From Casimicrobiaceae bacterium (GTDB lineage Bacteria > Pseudomonadota > Gammaproteobacteria > Burkholderiales > Casimicrobiaceae), in NCBI GenBank assembly GCA_025056355.1, contig JANWWI010000007.1:1-64000 (forward strand): a DNA stretch of 64,000 nucleotides. The letters run 5' to 3'. Position numbers and translations under genes: made by a program. Shown one piece after another: positions 1-5,395 of this stretch. Numbering within the stretch: the first letter of the stretch is position 1; every line of letters starts with the position of its first letter. The notes beneath the pieces are model-generated. The model had not been told where the DNA came from. It was given only the letters and a program-made list of their open reading frames with translations, and did no database searches.

Positions 1-566
1 AATACGTAGCCAAAGCCGAAAAGAATCGGTTCCCATCGGTCATGGTTGGAATCAGGCCGGTTCGGCCAAGTACTCTCCACGACAACGATCCATGGGCGCA
101 CCGTCGAAGCCGCCCAACTCTGGAGTACCTCGGCCTCGGCCCCTTCAACATCGATTTTCAGCCAGTGAACGTGAGGAACATTCAAGGAATCAAAAACACT
201 AGACAACGGGAGTGTTGCAACAGTGATTTCTCGCGCCGAAAACCCCGCGTGTTGGTGCTGTTGGGCAATCTCCAGATCCAGTGTCGATAACCCGGTATCA
301 GGAATTTCGAAAAACTTTCGTACACCAGCGTTGGCAGCAATGGCGACCTCAAGAACGGTTTCATCCGGACGGTGCTCACGAAGCAGTCTCGCGTAATGAG
401 AGACGGGTTCAATATGAATGCCGCGCCAGCCCCGTTCGTAGAAAGCTAAGCTGACCGAGTCGATGACTGGATGTTGCGCGCCGACATCGATATAAAAACC
501 TTTATCGATATGCTTCAACGCCCGAAAAAGTAAAACGTCCTCAAAATTTTGCGCGTATGAAATCAT
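1..566 (-). CDS. FkbM family methyltransferase, partial (3' end beyond left edge)
   Basis: Reading the minus strand from the ATG at 566 gives an uninterrupted frame of 188 codons to the window edge. The protein opens with MISYAQNFEDVLLFRALKHI, carries the glycine-containing SAM-binding stretch YIDVGAQHP, then IEP, and later WLKIDVEGAE. This is the usual N-terminal layout of FkbM-type SAM-dependent methyltransferases, which often O-methylate sugars or polyketides and sit among glycosyltransferase genes. The carboxy end lies outside the window. The gene and its upstream region are visibly richer in A and T than the GC-rich genes to the right, which suggests acquired DNA (inference). The substrate is unknown; a surface glycan is a reasonable guess because the next genes are glycosyltransferases. 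The family call is firm and the function is not. Confidence 0.85.
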   Translation of the reverse strand, partial: MISYAQNFEDVLLFRALKHIDKGFYIDVGAQHPVIDSVSLAFYERGWRGIHIEPVSHYARLLREHRPDETVLEVAIAANAGVRKFFEIPDTGLSTLDLEIAQQHQHAGFSAREITVATLPLSSVFDSLNVPHVHWLKIDVEGAEAEVLQSWAASTVRPWIVVVESTWPNRPDSNHDRWEPILFGFGYV

Positions 567-754: not shown

Positions 755-1108
755 TTACGGGTCTAAATCGTCCTCCTCGCCTTTGTTTTTTTTGTTGGCC
801 GTCGCCAGCAACGCAAACTGTTGGGACAGCTGACGCACCTCGCCGCTCAGACGTGCAAGCACGAGATCGGCGTGCAGGGCCTTGCCGCCGAGCAACACCA
901 ACGCGGGTAGGGCCAAGACCCAGTCGGAGACCCCGGCGAGATCCTCGCCCAAGCCCAGCAGCCAATAAGTCGTTAGTGCTGCAAAGAAAAGAGTGAAGCC
1001 GACCCAAAACAGGGAGCTTCCAAGGGGAAGTTGATCCCGGCGTATCAGCACAACGATGAGCGCAAGCAGTGACACGCTCAGCGCAAATAAAAGAAGAGGC
1101 AGTGTCAT
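755..1108 (-). CDS. DUF2304-type small membrane protein
   Basis: 117 residues starting MTLPLLLFALSVSLLALIVV, with about three hydrophobic segments (roughly residues 2-22, 30-52 and 60-78). A charged C-terminal tail, rich in Q, K, E and D, follows. This size and layout fit the DUF2304 family, which is commonly encoded beside a DPM1-like GT2 glycosyltransferase and is thought to be its membrane partner. That is exactly the context here: the ATG at 1108 overlaps the stop of the upstream GT4-GT2 fusion gene in an ATGA. The frame stays open far upstream, but those codons lie over the glycosyltransferase gene, and the ATGA overlap decides the start. The family call is by layout and neighbourhood, so moderate confidence. 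Confidence 0.7.
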   Translation of the reverse strand: MTLPLLLFALSVSLLALIVVLIRRDQLPLGSSLFWVGFTLFFAALTTYWLLGLGEDLAGVSDWVLALPALVLLGGKALHADLVLARLSGEVRQLSQQFALLATANKKNKGEEDDLDP

Positions 1109-2988
1109 GACCAGGCGTCTACCGGCACGGCGAGCGAGCGTAACTTGTGACCACGTTTGCATGCGGCGAGGAGCGTGGTTTGGGAAAAATATCGCGCCAC
1201 CTCGCCCCAGTTCGAAAACACGCGTGATCCCCCGACTCGCCTCGGGCCCATGCGCACGCTCACTTCGCGAACCATCAAACGGTGCGCTGCTAGGAGATGG
1301 AGGACACCGACGTCTTGGTGTTCGAGAAGGCAAGCGCGACGGCCCGCAAGGGTGGCAAGCGCCGTGCGTCGGTAGAGCCGAAACCCCGATGTGAAATCCA
1401 GCACCCGTAACCCCGTGATCCATCGAAACCACGCCCACGCCAGTCGCCGCAGGCGAGTCGCTCGGGCGGGACAGCTGCCAATGACGGCGTCCACGCCGCC
1501 GGCGGCGTCGAGCAGTTTTTGGATCTCGCTCGCAAAATGCTGCCCGTCGGCATCCATGGTGATGACGGCGCTGTAATTGTGGCGGAGCGCGTAGCGAATG
1601 CCAGTCTGGGTTGCACCCCAAGCGCCGAGGCGTAGCGGCAAGCGAAGCACGATCGCGCCGGCCGCGCGGGCGCGCTCGGCGGTGGCGTCGGTGCTTGCAT
1701 CATCGACGACCACGACGTCAGGGTAGCCATGCGCCTTGACATCGGCCACCACCTCGCCCACGGTGGCCTCTTCGTTGTACGCCGGGATCACCACCAGCGG
1801 CCGCTCGTGCGCTTCGGGTTGCGGATGATCGGGGTCGAGGACGGCTTGAACGATTCGCTCAAGCCGCTTCGTCACGCTTTCGATTTCGAAGCGCTCGCTC
1901 GCGAGGCGCCGACCGTTTTGCCCCAGAGCCGCAGCAAGCGCCGCGTCTCGAGCCAGGCGCTCGATAGAGGCTGTCCATGCCGGCACTTCATCGGGCGGCG
2001 GTGTGAGCGCGGTGAGGCCTTCGCGGGCGAGCTCACGCACGCCGCTGCCTTCGAGCCGCGAAGCGATGATCGGTAACCCCGCCCGCATCGCCTCCACAAG
2101 CACAAGGCCGAAGGCCTCCGTGCGCTCCCGGCTCGGCAGCGCGAAGGCTTGTGCCGTGTGCAGCAGGGCAAGCTTTTCGTGTTCGGTGACGCGAGAGAGC
2201 AACCGAATGCGCACATCGCCGCCGGGGATCTGCGCAATCAGCCGACGCAGCTTTGGCCCCTCTTTTCCGTCACCGACGAGCACGAGGGCGACATCTTCAA
2301 GCGGGGCGAGGGCACGGATCAGGGTGTCGAAGCCTTTGTAATAGGTGAGTCGCCCAATCGCAAGAAGCCGAAACTGCCCCTCTGGCCATTGTGAGGCGGC
2401 CCAGGCGAGTTCGTCGGCGTTGGGTTGCCGATCCGGGTATTCGAGCCCAAGGGGAATGGCCACCGTGCGATCGCGGTAGGGCTCGAGCGCTTCGCTTGTG
2501 ACTAAGTAGGAGGCCGAGGTTGCGATGACCAGATGCGCGCGCTCGAGCACGAGCCGCTCGTAGGGCCGGTAGAAGGGGTAGAGCCAGCGCAGCAGGCGTT
2601 GATGTTTGGAAGCGACCACGTCGCTGTGCCAGTGAATCACCCACGGGAGTCGGCGCGCGCTCGCGAGCGTCAGGCCCGCAAGCGGTGCCATGTTGGGCAT
2701 GTGCCAGTGCAGGTAATCGGGCTTGAACTCCGCAATCGCGCGGGCAAGTTCGCGCCTGAGCGCCGGTGCGATCGGAACGAAGGCAACTTCGCGAGTCACC
2801 GGCACACGGCGAAGCCACGGCGGGTCGTCGGTCGGGAGAGGAAAACCCGGTGGATGGTGGGCAAGCGCAAAGGCTTCGATGCCTTGGCGGCGCTGTTCGC
2901 GCACCAAATCTTCCACGAAGCGCTCCACGCCGCCATGAAACGGCGCCCAGTACTTGCAGACGTGCAGGACGCGGCCGGTGAAACTCAT
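1105..2988 (-). CDS. GT4-GT2 fusion glycosyltransferase
   Basis: 627 residues with two complete glycosyltransferase units. Residues 1 to about 390 form a GT4-type (GT-B fold) enzyme: it begins MSFTGRVLHVCKYWAPFHGG, has the early HGGVE loop, RLTYYKGFDTL, LVGDG, and the donor-site EAFGLVLVEAM with its paired glutamates. From about residue 397 a GT2 (GT-A fold) domain starts with VVIPAYNEE, followed by VVVDDASTD and the metal-binding DxD in MDADGQH (about 479-481), then DFTSGFRLYRR as in dolichyl/polyprenyl-phosphate mannose synthases. The C-terminus lacks the transmembrane anchor some GT2 enzymes have, and the next gene encodes a separate DUF2304 membrane protein that could supply it. The start ATG overlaps the upstream gene's stop by four bases. 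One chain could both extend a glycan (GT4) and make a polyprenyl-phosphate sugar (GT2). The acceptors are unknown. Confidence 0.85.
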   Translation of the reverse strand: MSFTGRVLHVCKYWAPFHGGVERFVEDLVREQRRQGIEAFALAHHPPGFPLPTDDPPWLRRVPVTREVAFVPIAPALRRELARAIAEFKPDYLHWHMPNMAPLAGLTLASARRLPWVIHWHSDVVASKHQRLLRWLYPFYRPYERLVLERAHLVIATSASYLVTSEALEPYRDRTVAIPLGLEYPDRQPNADELAWAASQWPEGQFRLLAIGRLTYYKGFDTLIRALAPLEDVALVLVGDGKEGPKLRRLIAQIPGGDVRIRLLSRVTEHEKLALLHTAQAFALPSRERTEAFGLVLVEAMRAGLPIIASRLEGSGVRELAREGLTALTPPPDEVPAWTASIERLARDAALAAALGQNGRRLASERFEIESVTKRLERIVQAVLDPDHPQPEAHERPLVVIPAYNEEATVGEVVADVKAHGYPDVVVVDDASTDATAERARAAGAIVLRLPLRLGAWGATQTGIRYALRHNYSAVITMDADGQHFASEIQKLLDAAGGVDAVIGSCPARATRLRRLAWAWFRWITGLRVLDFTSGFRLYRRTALATLAGRRACLLEHQDVGVLHLLAAHRLMVREVSVRMGPRRVGGSRVFSNWGEVARYFSQTTLLAACKRGHKLRSLAVPVDAWS

Positions 2989-5063
2989 GATCGCGCCGGT
3001 GTAGCTGTGAGGCCTAATCGCGCGGCAAGCGGTTCGAGTTGGGCGTATTCTGCCGCGGCGAGCTTTGTGCGCGCTTCGGTCAGCAGCGTTTGTGCGCGTT
3101 CCCGTTGGCCCGCTGCCGCGAAGGCTTGCAGCGCGCCGGCGTACAGGCGAAGGCTTGCTCGTTCGTTCAGAAGCGCGGAGAAGGCCGCCGCGGCCTCGCC
3201 CGGTTTTTGCTCAGCCAGCAGCGCGTAGGCGCTTGCAAGCCGGGTGTGGAAGGCGCGCGGATCGAACGCCTGGGCGGTGCGAACATCGCCGAGCGTGTCG
3301 GCATCCGCTTGACCGAGCGCGAAACGAAGCAGGGCGCGTCGCGCGTGCGCCTCCGCTTTCACGCCCGGTTCTGCGCGCGGGCTCGCGATCGCCCGGCTGT
3401 AGGCGTCGAGCGCAAGCACGGGCTCCCCGTGGGTCTCAAGCAAAACGCCCGCATTGACGAACACGAGCGAATCCTCGATGCCGCGCCGCACCGCGCCGGC
3501 GAGGGCTTGCAGCGCCTGAGCGATGCGCCCGTTTTCGGCGAGCCACTCGGCGGTGGCAAAGAGTCCCTCGCCACCATCGCCGAGTCGTGTGGAGTGCTCG
3601 AAGTCGCGCAAGGCAAGGCGCGCTTGCCCCGCTTCGCGAAGGGCCGCGCCGCGGTTGAAGTAGGCACGCGACTGCCCCGGCGTGAGCTCTTCCGGCAGCT
3701 TGGCCACGGCATCCTCCCAAACCGCAAGCGGCGAGCGCATGCTGTAGGCGCGCTCGTGAGCAAGCAGGCTGGCCAGGACAAGCGCCACCGCGGCACCGAC
3801 CGCCAGCGCGCGCCGAAGCGCGGGCCGCTCGGGCGCTTCCGCCGGCGCGAGCGCCAGCGCAAGCCCCGGCAGCGCGATTGCCCACAAATAGCTGCGGTAG
3901 AGGACGAAAGGGTCCTGAATCCAGACCGTGGCGAACTCCGTGACATAAAGCGTGGTGACGAGCAGCAGGCACCACGCCGCAAGACGTACGCGGATCGAAC
4001 TCGAGAAGAGGCCAACGCATGCCCCGGCGAGGAGCGCCAGATAGCCGAGCACGCCGAGCACAAGCGCCAAGTCGTCAAAACTGACGGGGAAGCGCGGGCG
4101 CAGGTCAATCGACATCGCGCCGACGTTCGGGACGAGCCAGAGAAAGCCGTAGTGGAAGAACAGCCGCATTTCGTTGGCAATCGAAAGCGGCCAGATCATG
4201 CCCTCGATGCCTGGGGCGATCAGCGAGAGCTGGCGCACGTAGCGGACCGAGGCTTCATCGAAGGGCTGACCGATCAGATGCCCATAGCGCTGAAAGAGCA
4301 GGTAGCCACCGGCGAGCGCCAACAAGGCAAACGGCAGCAGCCAAACAAGCACACGCCTGGGCGAGGGCCGGCGCACGATGACCACAATCCCAAGCATCGC
4401 AGCCGGTAGGGCCACCGCGTACTCTTTGGAAAACATGGCTGCCACATAGGCGAGCAGTGCGCCCAGCAGCGCGTAGGGATGGCCACGATCGGCCCAAAGG
4501 AGCGTGCACCAAAGCGCGAGCAGGGAAAAAAGCGTGGCCAGAACGATCGACCGCTGAACGAGATAGGCCACCCCGTAGACCGCGACCGGATGCAGCAGAA
4601 ACCACGCGCAAGCGAAACCGAGCACTACCACGCCCCAGCGGCCCTCGGGCAGCGGCAGGCTTGTCCAGACGCCGGCTTGCGTCGTCTGCGGCGAGGGCGG
4701 CTCGTTTGCAAGCACGCGTGACAGCGTGCGGTAGAAGCCAAACAGGGTGAGCGCAACGAGCGCATGCAGTGCGACGTTGATCGAGCGCTGCCAGAGTACA
4801 TGTCCTTCGCCGAAGAGCCGCTCGAGTGCGACGATCGAGTGATAGGCGATCGTGCGCACCTTCAGCGTGAAGAGCTGGGCGTAGTCGTTTCGGAAGCTCT
4901 CGCGGCTGATCAGTTCATCGTCGAAGAAGAGCGGGGCGTTGAGCACCGGGTGATAGATTGCGGCAAGCAGCAGCAGTGCGCCGAAAATCCCCGCCGCACC
5001 GAGCGCAAAGTCGCGCAAGGACAGCGGCGGACGATTCCGGTCCGAAAGGACGAGGGTGCTCAT
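2985..5063 (-). CDS. TMTC-like integral membrane protein with C-terminal TPRs (putative GT-C glycosyltransferase)
   Basis: About 692 residues from the ATG at 5063. The frame is open to 5237, but those extra codons lie in repeat DNA and spell Pro/Gly-rich peptide, so I reject the longer form; ATG 5069 is also possible. Residues 20 to about 435 hold around ten hydrophobic segments. After the first comes FFDDELI, with an acidic cluster at about 48-50 where GT-C enzymes carry their catalytic acids. LHPVAVYGVAYLVQR (about 157) and FSKEYAV (about 211) resemble conserved stretches of the eukaryotic TMTC O-mannosyltransferases and their bacterial relatives. From about residue 464 to the end are TPR-like helices (RAYFNRGAALREAG and so on). 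TMTC proteins use a dolichyl-phosphate sugar; the next genes could make such a donor. The activity is inferred. Confidence 0.7.
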   Translation of the reverse strand: MSTLVLSDRNRPPLSLRDFALGAAGIFGALLLLAAIYHPVLNAPLFFDDELISRESFRNDYAQLFTLKVRTIAYHSIVALERLFGEGHVLWQRSINVALHALVALTLFGFYRTLSRVLANEPPSPQTTQAGVWTSLPLPEGRWGVVVLGFACAWFLLHPVAVYGVAYLVQRSIVLATLFSLLALWCTLLWADRGHPYALLGALLAYVAAMFSKEYAVALPAAMLGIVVIVRRPSPRRVLVWLLPFALLALAGGYLLFQRYGHLIGQPFDEASVRYVRQLSLIAPGIEGMIWPLSIANEMRLFFHYGFLWLVPNVGAMSIDLRPRFPVSFDDLALVLGVLGYLALLAGACVGLFSSSIRVRLAAWCLLLVTTLYVTEFATVWIQDPFVLYRSYLWAIALPGLALALAPAEAPERPALRRALAVGAAVALVLASLLAHERAYSMRSPLAVWEDAVAKLPEELTPGQSRAYFNRGAALREAGQARLALRDFEHSTRLGDGGEGLFATAEWLAENGRIAQALQALAGAVRRGIEDSLVFVNAGVLLETHGEPVLALDAYSRAIASPRAEPGVKAEAHARRALLRFALGQADADTLGDVRTAQAFDPRAFHTRLASAYALLAEQKPGEAAAAFSALLNERASLRLYAGALQAFAAAGQRERAQTLLTEARTKLAAAEYAQLEPLAARLGLTATPARS

Positions 5064-5157
5064 CGGCATGCATTTTGCCGTAGCGTTTGATGGCGCCGGC
5101 GGGGATGAGGAGTGTGGGAAAAGCGCGCGCGGCGTGGCGGTCAGCTTGCCCCGGGCG

Positions 5158-5340
5158 CCCTCACCCGGCGCTTCGCGCCACCCTCTCCCAGGGGGAGAGG
5201 GGAACTTCAAGCGGCTGAGGCCTAGACGCTGGAGCAACTCAAACCCCCTCTCCCTCTGGGAGAGGGTTGGGGTGGGGGCTAGCTACTTCGCTCGCGCTCC
5301 ACACTCCCTCTCCCTCTGGGAGAGGGTTGGGGTGAGGGCG
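5158..5340. repeat. Three GC-rich palindromic intergenic repeats
   Basis: The 332-base gap 5064-5395 has no gene. It holds three copies of a stem-loop element built on CCCTCTCCC...GGGAGAGGG with a flanking TCACCC or GGTGAGGG: about 5158-5203, 5244-5279 and 5303-5340. The last two share an identical 29-base core (5246-5274 and 5306-5334) spaced exactly 60 bases apart. The first copy has a different left flank. Elements of this type are scattered through many proteobacterial genomes. They would form strong RNA hairpins, and their direct role here is unknown. Confidence 0.8.
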
Positions 5341-5395
5341 TCTTCAAGCCACCAAGGCCCATCCCTGGCCGCGACAGCACCAACGGATGCCGGCC

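Follow-up and report, generated by a model that had tools for sequence, protein, structure and literature searches.

What do a membrane protein, a fusion glycosyltransferase and a small DUF2304 protein do together when their genes overlap on one strand? The question is raised by a locus near the start of the DNA analysed here (the window, a stretch of 64,000 nucleotides from a Casimicrobiaceae bacterium, contig JANWWI010000007.1). A preliminary description of this locus proposed that the second and third genes supply a polyprenyl-phosphate sugar which the first, taken to be a TMTC-like protein, could use in the periplasm. Our analysis points to a module by which a sugar or short glycan is first built on polyprenyl phosphate in the cytoplasm and then put to use in the periplasm, probably on a protein, a reading to which we assign a probability of roughly 0.55. 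Computation supports the GT-C fold of the membrane protein, the conservation of its motifs and the linkage of the genes, with the topology coming from prediction.

Organization of the locus

Three genes lie on the minus strand at 755–5063 as open frames whose translations of 692, 627 and 117 residues contain no internal stops. The first (2985–5063) encodes a membrane protein of predicted GT-C type with a C-terminal TPR array, which we call class A; the second (1105–2988) encodes a GT4–GT2 fusion glycosyltransferase, and the third (755–1108) a small GacJ-like DUF2304 membrane protein. Successive genes overlap by four bases, as had been described: TCAT on the plus strand at 2985–2988 (GT-C stop, GT4–GT2 start) and at 1105–1108 (GT4–GT2 stop, DUF2304 start) reads ATGA on the coding strand. 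Because relatives at about 33–61% GT-C identity keep the gene order, the module is more than a chance arrangement.

An FkbM methyltransferase gene (1–566, minus strand, identified with Pfam) follows the module, and the contig ends inside it. The preliminary description suggested that it may modify the sugar, a link for which we find no support: tblastn over 39 stretches (the window, class A loci, two loci resembling the sister class B described below, and displaced donor genes, several of them on contigs that end soon after the module, as in L046, L040 and L078) found the gene in the window only, with the next best match at E 0.18, in agreement with earlier scans of the loci. It is therefore placed outside the conserved module. 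Locus L010 carries a different FkbM-domain protein, of other size and on the opposite strand.

Fold, topology and motifs of the membrane protein

When the modelled membrane domain was compared alone using VIA-align, rows 1–34 were all GT-C enzymes or complexes holding one, the assignment of the GT-C chain within complexes being our own reading, and row 35 was an unrelated design (Z 7.1). The Z scores, of which values under about 13 can reflect just an arrangement common among helical proteins, were 13.7 for chain U of the GPI transamidase, 13.2 for yeast oligosaccharyltransferase, 12.2 for GPI mannosyltransferase I, 11.1 for ALG3, 10.9 for ArnT, 9.5 for PglB and 9.4 for Pmt4. Two such rows were also present, at ranks 24 and 45, when the full-length model was compared. 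Searched against the PDB with Foldseek, the membrane domain had no significant match (lowest E 0.031), and a PDB profile search with the same domain returned none up to E 10. Given the Foldseek result and the caveat on Z for helical proteins, the case for the fold rests on the coherence of the VIA-align list, which supports a GT-C-like fold for a domain modelled at moderate confidence (mean pLDDT 63.9), as the preliminary description had anticipated.

In our reading of the model, 11 TM-like helices are followed by a TPR region (residues 445–692; 2988–3731) predicted to lie in the periplasm, where helical hairpins are modelled and TPR matches cover residues 493–690. In Pfam this gene has only weak TPR matches, all below their cut-offs; the PMT_2 family matches five of eight members of the aligned group (best E 5.6e-5), the window protein not among them. 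A charge test, which is weak evidence here, favours a periplasmic TPR array in 8/8 proteins if restricted to short loops, but no longer does so once the long loops of the window protein are included, its K/R then numbering 4 among 55 cytoplasmic loop residues and 13 among 140 periplasmic ones.

The DD, HPVAVYG and SKE motifs named in the preliminary description are all present, and DD (D48-D49, first predicted periplasmic loop; 4917–4922) and SKE (residues 212–214, third predicted periplasmic loop; 4422–4430) are invariant in eight aligned relatives; the E of its proposed DD-E is not conserved, however, and the H of HPV varies among H, N and S. In the fifth predicted periplasmic loop, the block TEFATVWIQDPFVLYRSYLWA (residues 375–395; 3879–3941) is identical in 8/8 over residues 375–392. 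Seven residues invariant in this set, D48, D49, K213, E214, D320, R390 and Y392, are candidates for catalysis or donor binding. In a wider alignment of 62 rows, 60 (all but L045 and L093) retain both DD and KE, and W-x-QDP occurs in 32/32 class A rows, with R at the W position in 24 of 25 class B/C rows.

Comparison with animal TMTC proteins

Like TMTC1–4 as described in PMC7801869, the window protein has a GT-C domain followed by TPRs, and it may share with them the 11 TM helices and the TPR array on the outer or lumenal side that are predicted for it. The DD of TMTC motif M1 (loop 1), the KE of M4 (loop 3) and the R and Y of M7 (loop 5) have counterparts at equivalent positions in DD, SKE and YRSY, conserved in 8/8, although the E of M7 (ERxxY) is absent from the window protein and its relatives. 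Three further motifs are replaced in all eight: M2 (SHKSYRP) by [SA]Y[GH]S[FI]V, M3 (RxD, loop 2) by RSI, and M5 (DW, loop 4) by D[LM]R. DUF1736 (PF08409), placed between TM7 and TM8 in TMTC proteins, has no match in the window protein in Pfam up to E 1; a PF08409 scan of 40 genomes, including the window's own, gave zero matches, as did its controls, and so carries no weight either way. The bacterial module also differs in bringing its own GT4–GT2 and DUF2304 genes. The layout and some of the catalytic motifs agree with those of TMTC proteins, and the membrane protein would work like one, but with no DUF1736 match and three motifs absent this does not establish it as a member of the TMTC family. 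Full-length homologues combining GT-C and TPR have already been mentioned in prokaryotes (PMC7801869).

The GT4–GT2 fusion and its DUF2304 partner

Pfam places GT4 and GT2 domains in the middle gene, the GT4 half spanning residues 1–390 (1819–2988) and the GT2 half residues 395–627 (1108–1806). The E-x7-E type motif of the GT4 half is intact in 25/25 aligned copies. The GT2 half has as its nearest PDB match a dolichol-phosphate-mannose synthase (E 2.8e-6), in keeping with its earlier likening to a polyprenyl-phosphate mannose synthase, and it matches the PpgS and AglJ models of NCBIfam, both below their cut-offs; its motifs are intact in the window, including the DxD-type site DADGQH (1537–1554). 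The third gene matches DUF2304 in Pfam at 27.3 bits (cut-off 25.5), and the family alignment and HMM agree. DUF2304 is typical of GacJ-like proteins, which help a GT2 (PMC8327497), so that the DUF2304 assignment of the preliminary description holds. In that source the streptococcal GacI–GacJ pair, and the lactococcal WpsA–WpsB pair with a role as initiator, likewise place a GT2 polyprenyl-phosphate sugar synthase directly before a DUF2304 gene. The present GT2 differs in being fused to a GT4 and, by our reading, in having no C-terminal TM helices of its own; the partner GT-C here bears a TPR array and the host is Gram-negative. By these likenesses the GT2 half and the DUF2304 protein are probably a GacI/GacJ-like donor maker, with the GT2 half a putative polyprenyl-phosphate sugar synthase.

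This pair is not constant. GT2 motifs are degenerate in 11 of the 27 fused copies scored while the GT-C and GT4 persist, so the GT2 half probably does not supply the donor in every case. Degeneration is frequent in one family, f49, in which the GT4 motifs stay intact. Outside f49, 10 of 11 loci have DUF2304 beside the GT2, two of them with an unfused GT2 (L011, L167); inside it, 1 of 18 does. One of the 11 copies with a degenerate GT2, L166, which lies outside f49, keeps its DUF2304 gene, with the same 4-base overlap as in the window. Loss of DUF2304 is associated with GT2 degeneration at a Fisher p of 0.016 with L166 counted as degenerate (0.0016 otherwise), among loci that are related and in a contrast that largely follows f49, for which reason we do not regard it as a test. 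The proposed logic of donor synthesis plus donor use gains from the GT2 and DUF2304 evidence, but it leaves the GT4 idle and sits poorly with the degenerate copies.

Conservation of the gene set

In 28 of the 31 class A loci that could be evaluated, the GT-C gene has the GT4 gene immediately after it on the same strand, with gaps of −4 to +32 bases when start codons are chosen by script. Of the three cases without this adjacency, two (G001 and the Azoarcus of L015) have a GT4–GT2 elsewhere. At L010 only a GT4 adjoins the GT-C and a GT2 lies on another contig of the genome; for a related GT-C, L132 (genome G686), the only GT4 is a distant one elsewhere in its genome. The GT-C genes of L040 and L078 lie at contig ends, and in neither genome was a GT4–GT2 detected at E ≤ 1e-20. 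In a sample of 399 genomes from the order, which includes that of the window, each of the seven with a fusion at E ≤ 1e-60 has a class A GT-C adjoining it, as judged by coordinates with up to three candidates scored per genome. A class-wide sample gave a match in 2 of 321 genomes, one of them the window's own; such first-look screens score few candidates per genome, and absences in them are soft. The class counts leave out L054 and L080 (broken GT-C frame), L093, L045 and L134 (upstream flank 0.5 kb).

Since the GT4 adjoins in 28/31 loci while DUF2304 and the GT2 motifs vary, GT-C plus GT4 is the constant core, and no other partner accompanies the GT-C gene as constantly as the GT4 half. The three-gene set of the preliminary description is thus borne out in relatives for the GT-C/GT4 pair, but DUF2304 is missing from 17 of 18 f49 loci.

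Neighbouring genes and candidate acceptors

Class A and the sister class B differ in their surroundings. Within the fetched flanks no pilin gene neighbours any of 33 class A loci, whereas class B directly follows pilin genes in 15 of 19 loci, with L133 adding one, in a scan that did not include three class B-like matches (G333, G224 and G129). By analogy, the position of class B hints at protein acceptors.

Clustering of the neighbours of 28 class A loci found no constant acceptor gene. The GT-C cluster covered 26 loci and the GT4–GT2 cluster 24, gene calling having missed some, and every other cluster covered at most 11. The next three (11, 9 and 9 loci) occurred only in f49 and in L013, a near relative of that family, and smaller ones crossed families in a few loci. 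One gene, whose start resembles that of metK, is common to 11 of the 28. Exported-looking proteins with fn3 or DUF1565 domains stand beside single loci (L041, L011).

Pilin genes proved uninformative as a marker of a class A acceptor, being present in 17/17 class A genomes searched and also in two genomes with no class A match. The surroundings of pilin genes were examined in 13 class A genomes; a pilin frame was picked up in seven and the other six were dropped. A sulfatase-family protein follows the pilin in the window's genome and a PglL-like ligase in that of L154, and these neighbours speak mildly against class A acting on pilin.

Proposed mechanism and alternatives

We propose that the GT2 half would charge polyprenyl phosphate with one sugar, the DUF2304 protein helping as GacJ helps GacI, and that the fused GT4 half would add a second to give a lipid-linked disaccharide. 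Once a flippase had turned the lipid-linked glycan over, the GT-C/TPR protein would transfer it to an acceptor in the periplasm; this is most likely a protein, which the TPR array would hold. The GT-C reaction may be served by the DD of loop 1, the KE of loop 3 and, close to the phosphate of the donor, the QDPFVLYRSY loop. Confidence differs among the parts. We consider it likely that the GT-C partners the GT4–GT2 as a periplasmic transferase dependent on polyprenyl phosphate; that its acceptor is a protein is only somewhat favoured, and that the glycan moved is longer than one sugar is a tentative suggestion, somewhat less likely than not. Mannose as the sugar, like protein as the acceptor, is what we infer.

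The strongest competitor, though an unlikely one, is modification of a surface polysaccharide by a three-component-type system, in which the GT-C would add a polyprenyl-phosphate sugar to O-antigen, capsule or exopolysaccharide in the periplasm, the GT4 having a part in the assembly of that glycan. Systems of donor synthase plus GT-C (PMC11127046) and GT2–DUF2304 pairs (PMC8327497), as presented in these sources, do act on polysaccharides. GDP-mannose-pathway genes, at E ≤ 1e-30, lie near 4 of 33 class A stretches versus 0 of 17 for class B/C, too few to use. Those near class A are presumably ManC in L011 and L014 and Gmd in L119 and L126. Against a polysaccharide acceptor, housekeeping genes are the neighbours of many loci in the richest family (compare the metK-like gene above), the sister class B follows pilin genes, and TPR arrays usually bind proteins.

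Less probable still is a glycolipid pathway in which the GT4 glycosylates a membrane lipid on the cytoplasmic side in the manner of PimA, the GT2 supplies a sugar on polyprenyl phosphate and the GT-C, like PimE of mycobacteria, elongates the glycolipid once it has been flipped. The best PDB matches of the GT4 half are indeed PimA (E 6.8e-20), the constancy of the GT4 is expected if it makes the acceptor, and loss of the GT2 would just change the source of the donor. But good matches to the GT4 half also include Tll1590 and a D-inositol 3-phosphate glycosyltransferase, so the PimA match is not specific, and the TPR array would have no clear role. That the membrane protein is instead a scaffold or flippase-like partner of the GT4–GT2 is very improbable: GT-C-like proteins with no known transferase activity exist (PIG-U is one), a GPI transamidase chain heads the VIA-align list and the model is of moderate confidence, but a scaffold has no obvious need of seven invariant candidate residues.

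Returning to glycan transfer to protein, a bolder version seems to us possible but unlikely as a whole: that the module is a bacterial counterpart of TMTC in which the GT4–GT2 builds a polyprenyl-phosphate disaccharide that the GT-C/TPR protein transfers en bloc to exported proteins selected through its TPR array, with the motif-poor but full-length GT2 of f49 perhaps acting as a carrier-binding scaffold for the GT4.

Relation to known systems

To our knowledge Ppm1–Pmt, a bacterial pairing of donor maker and transferase, includes no GT4, DUF2304 or TPR array. In this actinobacterial system a polyprenol-phosphate-mannose synthase works with a membrane protein O-transferase that uses its product, from genes that in S. 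coelicolor (sco1423 and sco3154) are not neighbours, unlike those of the module (PMC5882110). TfpW of Pseudomonas aeruginosa group IV, an arabinosyltransferase that the title of a cited reference calls a GT-C, glycosylates the pilin with which it is associated (PMC11841053); it is comparable to class B, which follows pilin genes, and class A differs in lacking a pilin neighbour and bringing its own donor genes. Three-component Gtr/GT136 systems also join a lipid-linked donor synthase to a GT-C (PMC11127046); they include a flippase gene and, unlike the module, have no GT4 fusion.

The preliminary description knew of no bacterial system with this gene set. For the gene pair this agrees with a literature search of open-licence papers by title and abstract start, whose listed matches included no paper on the GT-C/GT4–GT2 pair or on class B, but Ppm1–Pmt and prokaryotic GT-C plus TPR proteins were already in print, as cited above. 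If our reading is correct, many Burkholderiales would have, as a self-contained unit, a periplasmic glycosylation module with the TMTC layout, which would offer a genetically tractable bacterial model for TPR-bearing GT-C proteins and their choice of acceptor, and the pilin-adjacent class B would form a further set of candidate pilin glycosyltransferases open to direct testing.

A conserved three-gene module, probably for glycosylation

The three minus-strand genes at 755–5063 form a real, conserved module, probably for polyprenyl-phosphate-dependent GT-C glycosylation with a TMTC-like transferase. In transcription order, the translated frames encode the GT-C membrane protein (2985–5063, 692 residues), a GT4-GT2 fusion (1105–2988, 627 residues) and a DUF2304 protein (755–1108, 117 residues), and both frames and sequence bear out the 4-base ATGA overlap that the preliminary description had noted at both junctions. 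An FkbM gene (1–566) follows 188 bases after the DUF2304 gene; it is truncated, since the window (G000:C148:1-64000) starts at a contig end. A stretch of dispersed repeats lies upstream of 5063, and the genes beyond it do not appear, from reading of the open frames, to be glycan genes. A dispersed repeat (CCCTCTCCC...GGGAGAGGG type) occupies 5155–5341, just upstream of the GT-C gene, and this stretch accounts for 47 of the 49 places in the window's genome that were listed for the query. Among the open-licence papers listed as matches we recognised no study of the module.

A predicted GT-C fold with TMTC-like layout

Single-sequence searches of the window GT-C returned TPR only, with weak matches, and Pfam PMT_2 matches five of eight aligned GT-C sequences, the window protein not among them. 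In this alignment, whose other members are 32–60% identical to the window protein, DD (48–49), R70, Y74, S76, R93, N96, H100, R171-S172, S212-K213-E214, D320, R322-P323 and the block TEFATVWIQDPFVLYRSY (residues 375–392) are invariant. The AlphaFold2 full-length model (pLDDT 77.4) has a C-terminus resembling TPR structures, preceded by eleven predicted TM helices. With the membrane-domain model (pLDDT 63.9), VIA-align rows 1–34 are all GT-C enzymes or complexes holding one, in which the GT-C chain was assigned by our reading (GPI transamidase, oligosaccharyltransferase, GPI mannosyltransferase I, ALG3, ALG12, AftA, AftB, AftD, ArnT, AglB, PglB, Pmt4 and Emb among them); row 35 is an unrelated design. 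For helical proteins Z below about 13 may reflect a common arrangement, and it is because the list is of one kind that we take the predicted fold to be GT-C-like, as the preliminary description had anticipated, and the protein to be, on its model, a GT-C with C-terminal TPR. Foldseek with the same model gave nothing below E 0.03, its first four matches being GPI transamidase and oligosaccharyltransferase chains. K/R charge in short loops, with outer-side loops of >45 residues omitted, favours the predicted orientation (TPR outside) in 8/8 sequences; counted over all loops of the window protein (4 among 55 inner and 13 among 140 outer loop residues), it does not.

TMTC proteins are described in PMC7801869 as having 11 TM helices, lumenal TPR and seven motifs. 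The window protein shares M1 (DD), the KE pair within M4, and both the R and the Y in M7, but lacks M2, D of M3, W of M5 and E of M7, and no DUF1736 match was found in it with Pfam. The proposed TMTC-type transferase thus holds for predicted layout and part of the motifs, though not as far as TMTC membership. Full-length prokaryotic GT-C plus TPR homologues are already mentioned in the discussion of that paper.

In a tree of 61 GT-C domains, class A, the window type (31 rows, about 650–690 residues), has branch support of 100/100 with the outlier L132 and 64/80 without it; class B (about 550 residues) forms more than one clade and class C (about 770 residues) lies apart from class A. With all classes pooled, 44/399 genomes of the order sample match the window GT-C at E <= 1e-12, as do 2/321 of the class-wide sample, the window's own genome included. 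The last loop reads W-x-QDP in 32/32 class A rows, whereas in class B/C the W position is R in 24/25 rows (H in L067) and the QDP site is QE in 23/25, a difference that is a candidate specificity switch.

GT4 is the most constant partner, and DUF2304 goes with GT2

Linkage was evaluable at 31 class A loci (window, L010–L015, L039, L041, L046, L074–L077, L118–L132, L135, L136); L040 and L078, at contig ends, were left out, and genome searches found no GT4-GT2 in their genomes. GT4-GT2 is the same-strand next gene in 26 of the 31, the L046 copy being cut by the contig end and the L122 copy frameshifted, and GT4 alone adjoins in two (L010, L011), with gaps of -4 to +32 bases. At L122:6371-8177 the GT4-GT2 matches fall piecewise in different frames, adjoining an open GT-C gene. 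GT4 is not adjacent in L039, L015 and L132; genome searches placed GT4-GT2 elsewhere for L039 (genome G001) and L015, a distant GT4 only for L132, and the GT2 of L010 on another contig. Because some are near-copies (L076/L136, L013/L118), the loci do not represent independent events. Seven of the 399 genomes in the order sample (own included) have the fusion at E <= 1e-60, and a class A gene adjoins it in all seven. An open frame near the displaced GT4-GT2-DUF2304 genes of G001 (L165:262-1506) starts like what we take to be a group II intron reverse transcriptase.

The search for the three-gene set that was first proposed thus bears out GT4 beside class A (28/31) but not DUF2304 in family f49 and the loci close to it in the tree (L012, L013, L074, L077, L118–L131), where it occurs in 1/18 loci (L012, opposite strand). 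Outside f49, DUF2304 adjoins GT2 in 10/11 loci (window, L011, L041, L075, L076, L135, L136, L165–L167), the exception being L014; the cut-off L046 does not count towards the 11. In L011 and L167, DUF2304 comes directly after a GT2 that is not fused, so DUF2304 goes with the GT2 half.

The GT4 motif is intact in 25/25 aligned fused copies (L122 was omitted from motif scoring, its frameshift spoiling the alignment), while 10/25 GT2 halves depart from consensus at both of two sites, DADGQH and the second D of VxDD, four of them retaining DxD itself. With L166, one of two copies read later and without DxD, 11/27 scored are degenerate (L074, L077, L013, L118, L120, L121, L124, L126, L127, L131, L166). 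All remain open and full-length beside an intact GT4 motif; from their motifs, these GT2 halves may be inactive. Nine group in a single clade (100/100) whose branch is long, in a tree whose program flags long branches; L131 is separate. GT4 halves are more alike than GT2 halves in the degenerate group (0.70 vs 0.60) and less alike in the intact group (0.52 vs 0.60). The GT2 halves of L013/L118 cluster with other degenerate ones and their GT-C with L123/L125, a pattern suggesting that one gene was exchanged between lineages.

Proposed pathway and acceptors

GacI/GacJ and WpsA/WpsB, GT2 plus DUF2304 pairs according to PMC8327497, are matched by the window's pair. The proposed mannose synthase-like GT2 is upheld in its family resemblance (best PDB match dolichol-phosphate-mannose synthase, E 2.8e-6), not in its specific sugar. 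As the most constant GT-C partner, GT4 should act in the GT-C pathway, where we favour that it would lengthen the lipid-linked sugar. It could instead make a glycolipid acceptor for the GT-C, the best PDB match of the GT4 half being PimA, or build a polysaccharide acceptor.

Pilin neighbours were sought by pattern search in fetched flanks of none (contig ends) to 14 kb. In class B, a sister class that is likewise GT-C plus TPR, the gene lies downstream of a pilin gene in 15/19 loci (L079, L083, L085, L087, L088, L092, L042, L081, L091, L063, L064, L066, L067, L069, L072), and an added scan found pilin upstream of class B-like L133 too; within these flanks there was none upstream of class C (0/6) or near class A (0/16, then 0/17 more, 0/33 in all). 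Elsewhere in the window's genome (L147:3076-5741, G000:C82) the gene after a pilin gene, in the same orientation, encodes a membrane protein of the sulfatase family that may transfer a phospho-group to pilin; in another class A genome (L154:4830-7184) a gene for a PglL-like ligase (Wzy_C, Wzy_C_2, PglL_A) comes after the pilin gene. Together with TfpW, the precedent for GT-C pilin glycosylation in PMC11841053, the class B linkage suggests that pilin is the class B acceptor and these enzymes candidate pilin glycosyltransferases; by kinship with class B, a protein is a fair guess for the acceptor of class A.
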